This document shows positions 5,063 to 9,803 of a DNA stretch of 62,240 nt, in pieces. The DNA comes from a virus. Position numbers and translations under genes: made by a program. Each line of letters starts with the position of its first letter. The stretch's first letter is position 1. Location of the stretch: IMG/VR virus record IMGVR_UViG_3300021225_000301, positions 1 through 62,240 of that record. The stretch is one strand, 5' to 3'. Below the pieces are notes generated by a model, which was given only the letters and a program-made list of their open reading frames with translations, did no database searches and was not told the origin of the DNA.

Positions 5063-5078
5063 GGGGGCCGAAGCCCCC
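5063..5078 (-). terminator. cUUCGg-capped intergenic hairpin
   Basis: Read on the minus strand: GGGGGC TTCG GCCCCC, a perfect 6-bp stem closed by the very stable C(UUCG)G tetraloop. It sits between the stop of the gene at 5086 and the ribosome site of the 30-aa gene. There is no U-tract, so a role in mRNA 3'-end protection or processing is as likely as termination. Confidence 0.6.
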
Positions 5079-5085
5079 GGGTTTC

Positions 5086-5502
5086 TTAGATGTCGATGCT
5101 CACGCTGGCGTGGCGCATGATCTCGCGCACCTTGTCCTCGAAGTCGATCTCGTCGATGGCATCAGTAACCGCATCGCTCACCTTCTCCTCGACCCGGTCA
5201 TCGAACCGGTCGTACTCGTCGTGGTCGTAGAGGTGGTTGTGATCGTTCATCGCTTGCTCTGCTACCTCCTCGGCAATCTCCTTGATGAAGTCTGCGTTTG
5301 TGCTCTGCAGATTGTTAACCTTTACCTCCAACTCAGCGATGCGCTGGTGAAGGTGTTGTGTTGCTTGTTGGATTGCTTGCGCCAGCGCAGCGTTGAAGGT
5401 GGCGGTGAAGTCGAAGATGGGGTTAGTTGCTTGCATGGTTGCTTCGTTGGTTGATTGGGTTCCGGTTTGCATGGTGCTGTCTGCGTTGATGATGTTTTCC
5501 AT
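5086..5502 (-). CDS. Coiled-coil early protein, 138 aa
   Basis: Starts MENIINADSTMQTG at 5502; a longer frame upstream would run through the structured leader. Residues ~45-85 form a heptad-like helix (HQRIAELEVKVNNLQS), followed by a very acidic region with HNHLYDHDEYDRFDD and a helical tail. Probably oligomeric. No family assigned. Its leader is one of three copies of a two-hairpin element. Confidence 0.75.
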   Translation of the reverse strand: MENIINADSTMQTGTQSTNEATMQATNPIFDFTATFNAALAQAIQQATQHLHQRIAELEVKVNNLQSTNADFIKEIAEEVAEQAMNDHNHLYDHDEYDRFDDRVEEKVSDAVTDAIDEIDFEDKVREIMRHASVSIDI

Positions 5503-5576
5503 GGTTTGCTTTCGTAGGTTGCTTGAACTGGGACTGAAGCGCAGTCCCCACGCTGGGGGAGAAACCTCCCCGATCC
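5503..5576 (-). promoter_or_regulatory. Two-hairpin leader element, copy 1
   Basis: Directly after the stop of the DUF932 gene. Hairpin I on the plus strand is GGGGAG-AAAC-CTCCCC (5556-5571). Hairpin II (5530-5548), read on the minus strand, has stem GGGACTG/CAGTCCC and loop CGCTT. The motif CAAGCAA follows, then the start codon at 5502. Copies 2 and 3 have the same order and length. Confidence 0.6.
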
Positions 5577-6548
5577 TTACGCTGTCACCAGCGCCAGAGC
5601 TTTCTGCTTGAGCGCATCGCCCGGCCCCCACAGGGCAGAGGCTTGGCGGTTCTCATCGCTGCGGGCACGGACATGGTGGTCGGCGTACTCAGTCACGGCA
5701 TTCAAAAATCCCCACGCAGTCTGATAAGAAGATTCCAGATTGCTGCCCTTACCCTCGCCGTTGAAGAGCGCCATGATCTTGGAGAATGCGGCGGACTCGC
5801 GTGCCACCTCCTCGCTCGACTTCATCAGGAGCTTCACAGTCATCGCCTCGGCGATGTCCTGCTCCATCTTGATGTTCGCCAAGCTGCGCGCTGCTTGCAT
5901 GAATGCGGAGAACTCTTCGTTCGCTGCCTCGACTGCGTCGCGTGCATCATCCGGGTTGAACACCGAGCGATGCGACACCTTGAACGCCGCCTTACCCTTG
6001 AGCGCAATGCTCAGCGTGTTGTTGCACACAGTACGCACAGTAGTCCAGCGGCATTCCGTGGCAAGGGAACCGTCGGCAGACGTAGAGAGCAAGGCGTAGG
6101 GCACGATGCGGTCACGCCCACCATCGACAGAGACCGCGTCCCCGAGCTTGGCGGTTGCGAAGTAGCGCTTGCCACCGAACAGCACACCTGCGGACTCGAT
6201 GGTCACGCCGCCCTTGTCCGCCCACTCACGGAAGAACTCCAAGACTTCGGCGGGTTGAACAACTTTATAACTATCGCTGACGACTCCCAGCGCTGCGCCC
6301 GTGTCGTTGCGGAACAGCACGACCTTGTCGTCGAGCTTCTTGAGGTTGCCGATGGCATCCGTTGCTTCATTGAAGCGCTCCGTTGCGTAGCGCACCAGCC
6401 CTCGCTGGATCTTGTAGTCCATGCCGGCAGCAGCTTGCCACTGCTCGACAGTCTGCCCGACGGGCATCAGTTGTCCGAGGCCGTGCCACTCACGCTGGGT
6501 GGATGCGTATTGAGCGACGCCGTTAACGATAGAAATTTGATGAGCCAT
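5577..6548 (-). CDS. DUF932 protein, 323 aa
   Basis: Full-length member of the DUF932 (phage/plasmid-like TIGR03299) family. Typical features are WHGLG near residue 21, GVVSDSYKVVQP (about 88-99), FGGKRYFATAKLG and the central CRWTTVRTVCNNTL with the conserved Cys-Asn-Asn. Family role is unknown, but members are common in phage and plasmid early regions. RBS AAGGAAG upstream. Among the largest genes of the left arm and preceded by a two-hairpin leader. Confidence 0.9.
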   Translation of the reverse strand: MAHQISIVNGVAQYASTQREWHGLGQLMPVGQTVEQWQAAAGMDYKIQRGLVRYATERFNEATDAIGNLKKLDDKVVLFRNDTGAALGVVSDSYKVVQPAEVLEFFREWADKGGVTIESAGVLFGGKRYFATAKLGDAVSVDGGRDRIVPYALLSTSADGSLATECRWTTVRTVCNNTLSIALKGKAAFKVSHRSVFNPDDARDAVEAANEEFSAFMQAARSLANIKMEQDIAEAMTVKLLMKSSEEVARESAAFSKIMALFNGEGKGSNLESSYQTAWGFLNAVTEYADHHVRARSDENRQASALWGPGDALKQKALALVTA

Positions 6549-6628
6549 GATTTACTTCCTTAGGTTGCTTGAATAAACACACTGCCGGTGAACCGCACCG
6601 GCGACGGCTGGGGAGAAACCTCCCCGAA
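6549..6628 (-). promoter_or_regulatory. Two-hairpin leader element, copy 2
   Basis: Hairpin I GGGGAG-AAAC-CTCCCC at 6610-6625; hairpin II at 6584-6602, minus strand stem GCCGGTG/CACCGGC with loop CGGTT; then CAAGCAA and the DUF932 ribosome site. The hairpin II stem differs from copy 1 at several positions but pairing is kept, which supports a real RNA structure. Confidence 0.6.
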
Positions 6629-7153
6629 TCAATCACACACGATGAAGCGTTCCTCACGCTTCACAACTTCCTCGCGTTCTTTGACCACGATTCTGCATGT
6701 GTCGCTGTCTTCCTTGACGTAGGCGTAGATGCCAACATTAATATTAAAACTACCGGGTACGTAGTGGGATTCCTTCATCAGTTTCTTGTACGCGATGGAT
6801 CGCGTGTCGTGATCCCATGTGAAGTCGCGGTCGAAGTTGTAGTCCCGATTGGGTTGCGTGCCGCTGGTGTAGTCCACAGTGTTGCCCTTCCAGTCGGCGA
6901 ACTTCTCCAGCACCGAGACCAAGCGCTTATCCCTGAACGAGTCGAGGTTGCGCAGGAAGAGGCTGATGTACACACAGTCCGATGAGCCAGCCAGCGACAG
7001 CCTAGCGTCGGCACGTGCCGCGACGGGCAGGGAGTTGAACACCCGAGCCACGACAGGTTGGCGCAGCAGGGTGACCCGCAGGACTGAGCGTGCTGCCTCG
7101 ATAGCAGCGCCACGAGTGGCGATCTTCGCCTTGGTTTTGAATGCGTCTTTCAT
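6629..7153 (-). CDS. Hypothetical early protein, 174 aa
   Basis: Starts MKDAFKTKAKIATRGAA after GGAGAAAGCAA. The basic Ala/Arg-rich N-terminus is followed by LPVAARADARLSLAGSSDCVYISL and a charged second half with KEREEVVKREERFIVCD at the end. No family recognised. It lies between two copies of the two-hairpin leader, in the same operon as the DUF932 gene. Confidence 0.75.
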   Translation of the reverse strand: MKDAFKTKAKIATRGAAIEAARSVLRVTLLRQPVVARVFNSLPVAARADARLSLAGSSDCVYISLFLRNLDSFRDKRLVSVLEKFADWKGNTVDYTSGTQPNRDYNFDRDFTWDHDTRSIAYKKLMKESHYVPGSFNINVGIYAYVKEDSDTCRIVVKEREEVVKREERFIVCD

Positions 7154-7224
7154 TTGCTTTCTCCTTGCTTGCATAGCCGGGAACCGCCCGGCGTCGGTCG
7201 GGGGAGGTTTCTCCCCCAGATTTG
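7154..7224 (-). promoter_or_regulatory. Two-hairpin leader element, copy 3
   Basis: Hairpin I at 7200-7217 has a 7-bp stem (plus strand GGGGGAG-GTTT-CTCCCCC). Hairpin II at 7176-7192, minus strand GCCGGG-CGGTT-CCCGGC, has the same CGGTT loop as copy 2. CAAGCAA then runs straight into GGAGAAAGCAAATG. Confidence 0.6.
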
Positions 7225-8148: not shown

Positions 8149-8270
8149 CGCTCATACGATCAAGAGTTGAAGGAAGCCCAATGCTAACACGTTTATCGCC
8201 CGAAGTGTCCAGCTTTCCTGCGTGTGAGCGAATGGCTGGGAAGCCCCACGAATACTGGGTTTGCACCATG

Positions 8271-8424: not shown

Positions 8425-8525
8425 AGAAGCGGGCCGCTAGGATTGACGCGGGTTTGCGGGCGATTGCTAGCCCGCAGGAAAGCTGGACATTTGTCTGATG
8501 CGTTTTTTGCATAGTTCTTGGAGTT

Positions 8526-8543
8526 GGGGGAGGTTTCTCCCCC
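8526..8543. terminator. Hairpin I alone, GGGGGAG-GTTT-CTCCCCC
   Basis: Same hairpin as in the two-hairpin leaders, placed a few bases after the stop of the gene at 8552, but without hairpin II or CAAGCAA. No U-tract. Confidence 0.5.
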
Positions 8544-9158: not shown

Positions 9159-9174
9159 GGGGAGAAACCTCCCC
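9159..9174. terminator. Hairpin I alone, GGGGAG-AAAC-CTCCCC
   Basis: Fifth copy of the same hairpin in the left arm, just after the stop of the gene at 9179. No hairpin II with the CGSTT loop is found here. Confidence 0.5.
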
Positions 9175-9568: not shown

Positions 9569-9803
9569 GATGATTTCTCCTATGTAGGTGGTATCTGCCG
9601 GGGCCAATCCCCAACCGATGCCTCTATTGTGCTGCAGGGTCGATTTGATAAGCCCTGAGGGTAGTGTTTATGCCCTGAAATCGGCCCTTTCCGACCCGTA
9701 CCCCCTCCCCACCACCCCAAATCCGATGGCCCGGCTGCATCGCACGTAAACACTGTTCCTCACCCGCACTACACATTTCTGTAATACTTAATACACAATC
9801 CAA

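Follow-up and report, generated by a model that had tools for sequence, protein, structure and literature searches.

The gaps in front of three consecutive genes in a virus record of 62,240 bases (the whole of this analysed stretch is called the window here) each contain a short RNA element that comparative sequence supports as a compact H-type pseudoknot. The same element precedes genes in many related phages, and we conclude that it constitutes a new RNA family, one that probably acts in cis, on the start of translation or on the fate of the message.

The three leader gaps all lie on the minus strand, at 5503-5576, 6549-6628, and 7154-7224. They precede, respectively, a gene for a 138-aa protein (5086..5502), a gene for a 323-aa DUF932 (PF06067) protein (5577..6548), and a gene for a 174-aa protein with no function assigned (6629..7153), all likewise on the minus strand. 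The initial annotation had proposed one plan for all three gaps, running from stop codon through hairpin I, a pentaloop hairpin II, and the motif CAAGCAA to the start codon, and all of its sequence statements hold, including the perfect hairpin II stems GGGACTG, GCCGGTG, and GCCGGG with loops CGCTT, CGGTT, and CGGTT. The 138-aa protein has no Pfam or PHROG match and a scan for its relatives returned none, and the genes at the same position in related genomes encode small acidic proteins. The DUF932 gene was the query by which relatives were retrieved, so that genomes were gathered mainly by protein rather than by RNA, with three additional contigs from a small DNA-pattern scan.

In each window copy, loop bases 1-3 of hairpin II are complementary to a triplet lying shortly 5′ of its stem, as GCG/CGC in leader 5503 and as CCG/CGG in leaders 6549 and 7154. 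Because the loop can thus pair with bases just outside the stem, hairpin II is an H-type pseudoknot, in which the helix made with the loop is termed S1, the original stem S2, and the short connection between them L1. Pseudoknot 1 (5530..5554, minus strand; 32.0-bit covariance-model match) comprises the S1 5′ strand (A)GCG at 5554-5551, L1 UG at 5550-5549, S2 GGGACUG at 5548-5542, the loop CGCUU at 5541-5537, which opens with CGC, the 3′ strand of S1, and S2′ CAGUCCC at 5536-5530. Pseudoknot 2, before DUF932 (6584..6608, minus strand; 37.0 bits), has the S1 core CCG at 6607-6605, L1 UC, S2 GCCGGUG at 6602-6596, loop CGGUU at 6595-6591, and S2′ CACCGGC at 6590-6584. Pseudoknot 3 (7176..7198, minus strand) has a 6-bp S2 and was found by the descriptor, without a covariance-model match; its parts are S1 ACCG at 7198-7195, L1 AC, S2 GCCGGG at 7192-7187, loop CGGUU at 7186-7182, and S2′ CCCGGC at 7181-7176.

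Across the family, S1 has 3 bp, L1 1-2 nt, and S2 5-8 bp (mostly 6-7), with S1′ following directly after S2; the first three loop bases close S1 and usually about 2 nt remain to cross it. L1 is 2 nt in the window copies and 1 nt in more distant relatives. A 7-bp S2 normally goes with an L1 of 2 nt and a 6-bp S2 with one of 1 nt, a pairing of lengths that fits the need of the loop to cross the deep groove and so argues for the knot. The family has the features of an H-type pseudoknot in both geometry, with 1-2 nt of L1 spanning 6-7 bp and groove-crossing loop lengths, and pairing, with the loop joined to bases outside the hairpin and compensatory changes in both strands. The second loop, which usually has 2 nt to span 3 bp, is about as short as knot geometry allows. 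With an S1 of just 3 bp, stability may be marginal unless Mg2+ or a binding partner is present. A fourth S1 pair, A-U beyond the core, does not form in 28 of 47 sequences and was placed outside the conserved helix. Almost none of the unpaired bases in the knot are conserved, the exception being a loop pyrimidine. Single-sequence folding is no more than weakly unusual for the three leaders (z -0.5, -2.3, and -2.1), and the evidence for structure is comparative.

The S1 core is paired in 48 of 48 distinct homologues from two curated alignments (A1, 21 rows; A4, 27 rows), rows that are related to one another and that include several group B members initially found by an S1-aware descriptor. Pairing reaches 100% of the rows in each alignment, with two-sided changes at all three pairs across both sets. 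Among the compensatory variants are GUG/CAC, CCU/AGG, and GCG/CGC, the last in two separate lineages; C-G became G-C in the window lineage and independently in L302/L303, C-G became U-A in L006/L007, and G-C became U-A in L073. When the S1 partner is slid by one to three columns the pairing is lost, with 9-54% of cells paired. S2 likewise covaries strongly, and the proposal that the gaps hold a structured RNA family with covariation is supported across many phages. Register required care in a few rows: L006 in A1 has a longer loop and is correctly aligned in its S1 columns only, and L073 has gaps in alignment A2 and lost its outer G-U pair to manual trimming in A4.

Searches blind to S1 point the same way. 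Among hairpins listed solely by a CGGTT, CGCTT, or CGGAT loop, the copies in leader position carry CCG or GCG to match. A wider collection of 131 pentaloop hairpins before starts contained 27 with S1 complementarity, whereas permutation gave 8.7 on average and 16 at most; the 27 omit about eight family members in which an extra outer pair shifts the frame, and the shuffle counts are not probabilities.

The knot was present in 31 of 52 distinct phage DUF932 leaders. In related genomes, 485 leaders preceding genes of at least 100 aa were compared with the descriptor; 20 fit it, and about 14 of these were judged to belong to DUF932 or adjacent genes, leaving roughly 6 in 470 other leaders. A covariance model built from the hairpin part of the family, a search of the kind suggested in the initial annotation, gave 24 matches in 762 kb of relatives, all in known leaders and one a clipped duplicate, an undercount given that the model skips 6-bp copies including window 7176-7198. 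The same model gave no matches in 64 bacterial or other-phage DUF932 records, and the knot was not found at bacterial DUF932 loci or in the three named phage records examined. The single genome of apparently bacterial origin that matched the descriptor, the Prosthecobacter MAG contig L140, looks like a phage contig near-identical to L069/L080 that was binned into a bacterial MAG.

Within these genomes, the knot stands before DUF932, before the gene preceding it, or before the gene following it, and occasionally before other small genes (L096/L117, L127, L136); many genes have none. Gaps lacking the pairing in close relatives would have spoken against the family, and for the DUF932 leader they do not occur in the window's own clade, where all distinct DUF932 leaders are paired. 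Pairing is missing only in distant clades (about 50% DUF932 identity or less), several of which carry the knot at a neighboring gene; in clade B2, for instance, the DUF932 leader has no knot and neighboring genes often have one. Membership is uncertain for two further knot-like leaders before non-DUF932 genes, one in L115 (2406, minus strand; S1 CGC/GCG), where the gene product carries an HEVTH motif, and one in L117 (10346; S1 GCG/CGC).

A second knot-like motif was seen in leaders of DUF932 or the next gene in L027-L034 and L050. It starts with the hairpin CAAUGCCCGGCGUGCCGGGUAUUG and continues GCGGU-GUAU-CCAGGC-G-ACCGC-AACU-GCUUGG, in which the loop CCAGGC can pair with GCUUGG; the L050 version, CCAGGC/GCCUGa, looks compensatory.

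The first-described unit, a two-hairpin element, was correct in being structured and covarying and is revised in its extent, as the recurring unit is the pseudoknot with its adjoining open Shine-Dalgarno sequence and hairpin I is not always present. In the window, hairpin I occupies 5556..5571 in leader 1 (GGGGAG-guuu-CUCCCC, directly 3′ of the DUF932 stop codon), 6610..6625 in leader 2, and 7200..7217 in leader 3 (GGGGGAG-aaac-CUCCCCC), all exact and on the minus strand. It also occurs alone, as first reported, at 8526-8543, without a pseudoknot, and at 9159-9174, where it is followed by the terminator-like CGAGUUUUU, both again on the minus strand. The sequence GGGGAGNNNNCTCCCC has five exact copies, for which the chance expectation is about 0.01 by our own estimate, and seven copies with up to two mismatches against 3.4 expected. 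The five window copies of hairpin I include both orientations (loop GTTT or AAAC), as a near-palindrome flipped between copies.

Stems of hairpin I in relatives range over GGGGAG/CUCCCC, GAGAGAG/CUCUCUC, GGGGAC/GUCCCC, GGGGGAA/UUCCCCC, and UGUCCA/UGGACA. Where present it lies 0-4 nt upstream of the knot in most group A leaders, and it is missing while the knot is kept in L008, L009, L024, L096, and some others. Because it is variable and sometimes missing, hairpin I is regarded, from its sequence distribution, as an optional, generic intercistronic hairpin that is accessory to the knot. The CAAGCAA motif, found in all three window leaders, is clade-specific among relatives. An anti-Shine-Dalgarno switch formed by the CUCCCC arm was considered and rejected, the arm becoming CUCUCUC, GUCCCC, UUCCCCC, or UGGACA in relatives. 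At window 5063-5078 (minus strand), a UUCG-tetraloop hairpin, GGGGGCUUCGGCCCCC, sits before the RBS of the next gene in the slot of hairpin I, and similar examples occur in relatives. A 16-nt inverted repeat (GTCCAGCTTTCCTGCG) noticed by eye at 8207-8222 and 8473-8488 flanks an AT-rich gap of about 250 nt, which could represent inserted DNA, an origin, or a regulatory gap; a repeat finder reported there only an inner 13-nt pair at 8271-8283/8412-8424.

Measured from the 3′ edge of the knot, the AUG lies 14-23 nt away (median 18) in group B and 13-38 nt away (median 23) in group A. The Shine-Dalgarno sequence falls in this interval, neither contained in the knot nor paired with it, and the RBS adjoining the knot is largely unpaired, the sole exception being leader 2 with predicted pairing at the start codon. 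That AGCC/AUGGCU pairing, predicted in one of the three window leaders, was rejected as a shared feature. In group A2 (L012-L022), the hairpin and knot come directly after a promoter-like TTCCCA-17-TACA(C/A)T, and because of this the module can, as read from sequence, be a true 5′ UTR and transcript start there. A different conserved sequence, CATCGGTTAGGGGATTGGC, appears at likely operon starts in L004 (~800-850) and L007 (~1690), with a similar CATCGGTTGGGGATTGGCC at window ~9600-9640 on the minus strand; both stand just after a promoter-like stretch, have alternative pairings, and are possibly another leader RNA.

In the most likely reading, still a tentative one, the knot would be a ribosome standby or insulating element. 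This is favored because the RBS is left open, the knot abuts the site of the 30S subunit and ribosomal protein S1, and shape is kept over sequence; copies within one genome that differ in sequence and share one shape likewise favor a shape-based role. Sitting at the upstream side of the 30S subunit, the knot would form a rigid platform that recruits or holds ribosomes or protein S1 as a standby site or enhancer, and would insulate the open RBS from folding of upstream RNA. Consecutive genes of one transcript could then be initiated independently, with hairpin I, after the preceding stop codon, serving as an accessory that caps or insulates the preceding cistron. Equally, a knot so near the RBS could hinder initiation, and the same data also fit a protein operator or an RNase barrier.

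Other translational pseudoknots offer partial parallels. The rpsO (S15) operator also lies beside the RBS, but it belongs to a ribosomal protein gene and its knot involves the initiation region, whereas the knot here stops short. The tisB mRNA also has a pseudoknotted 5′ leader linked to translation initiation, with pairing backed by compensatory changes, and the requirement of its pseudoknot for 30S and S1 binding is a precedent for the feasibility of a standby role (PMC7708055). Its dimensions differ, with an S1 of 9 nt and an S2 of 5 nt, and it lies at a processed 5′ end about 100 nt upstream of a sequestered RBS (PMC7708055), whereas the RBS here is open and adjacent.

Ranked second, and rather unlikely, is a translational operator, in which a phage-encoded protein would bind the knots, spread or sit across the RBS, and repress DUF932 and its neighbors on accumulating, as does T4 gp32. 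The T4-type gene 32 knot has a short L1 crossing S2, as here, and a 7-nt operator loop. Further likenesses to the T4, T2, and RB69 gene 32 operator are its H-type topology in a phage mRNA leader, its general place 5′ of an unstructured RBS, and its relaxed sequence with kept shape (PMC535899, PMC3014915), and repeated copies on consecutive genes, clustered at DUF932 and its neighbors, would suit a shared trans factor. The gene 32 knot, however, serves a single gene, lies about 67 nt upstream of the AUG, is followed by UUAAA repeats, and has gp32 as known ligand (PMC535899, PMC3014915), whereas the knot here, with an S1 of 3 bp, occurs in as many as three copies per genome before adjacent genes, stands 13-38 nt from the AUG, and has no known ligand. 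No UUAAA or UAAA repeats were found between knot and RBS, where the spacers are short and A-rich or U-rich, and the 7-nt loop is lacking too. The scarcity of conserved unpaired bases also counts against a protein reader, and no candidate protein was identified. DUF932 itself was rejected as the binder: it has no RNA-binding signature, no PDB fold matches its AlphaFold model (pLDDT 79.5) at E<0.001, and bacteria and other phages have the protein without the knot.

Less probable again is a message-stability module, in which hairpin I would shield the upstream cistron from 3′ exonucleases and the knot would be, or guard, a processed 5′ end against RNase E. Structured 5′ ends that protect mRNAs are established in E. 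coli, and hairpin I stands close behind stop codons, keeps its pairing despite sequence change, and also occurs alone. Yet hairpin I and the knot are usually separated by a linker of 0-4 nt, which hardly leaves space for RNase E, the knot is retained where hairpin I is missing, and a plain hairpin would suffice, so that the conserved 3-bp knot would go unexplained.

A transcription element, either a terminator or an antitermination RNA similar to HK022 put, which consists of two adjacent hairpins in early phage RNA, is improbable despite that likeness. A real T-run follows only the lone hairpin I at 9159; none of the three leader knots has an adequate U-run, the terminator listing including 6602-6584 on a weak mixed tail (AGTGTGTTTA), and the element is repeated before consecutive genes with most copies beside an RBS rather than near promoters. 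A small-molecule riboswitch is very improbable. Small H-type knots can be aptamers, and the preQ1 type is likewise a very small knot near an RBS (PMC11625349), but the knot here lacks its conserved ligand pocket and paired Shine-Dalgarno sequence; almost no unpaired bases other than the loop pyrimidine are conserved, and no expression platform reaches the Shine-Dalgarno.

The initial annotation did not recognize a described element, and in agreement with this no Rfam family matches: Rfam release 15 (4227 models) gave no matches at gathering thresholds in the window or ten relatives, and, with the cutoff relaxed to E of 5, no relevant match near the leaders. No description of this knot was found in the open literature searched. 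The RNA family therefore appears new, with one classic precedent for its kind, the pseudoknotted phage mRNA leader.

It is rather unlikely that one phage-encoded protein reads the knot shape on several adjacent leaders and switches DUF932 and its neighbors off or on together; if true, this translational regulon would be a second phage system after T4 gene 32, and a multi-gene one. At 22-28 nt and with natural compensatory variants, the knots are convenient test objects, and mutants that break and repair S1 are directly testable in a reporter. They also illustrate that simple-looking hairpins in phage gaps can conceal knots. A compact, recurrent, compensated pseudoknot that is absent from Rfam marks leaders in many uncultured phages and is associated with DUF932, a protein without an assigned function that is widespread in phages and bacteria.
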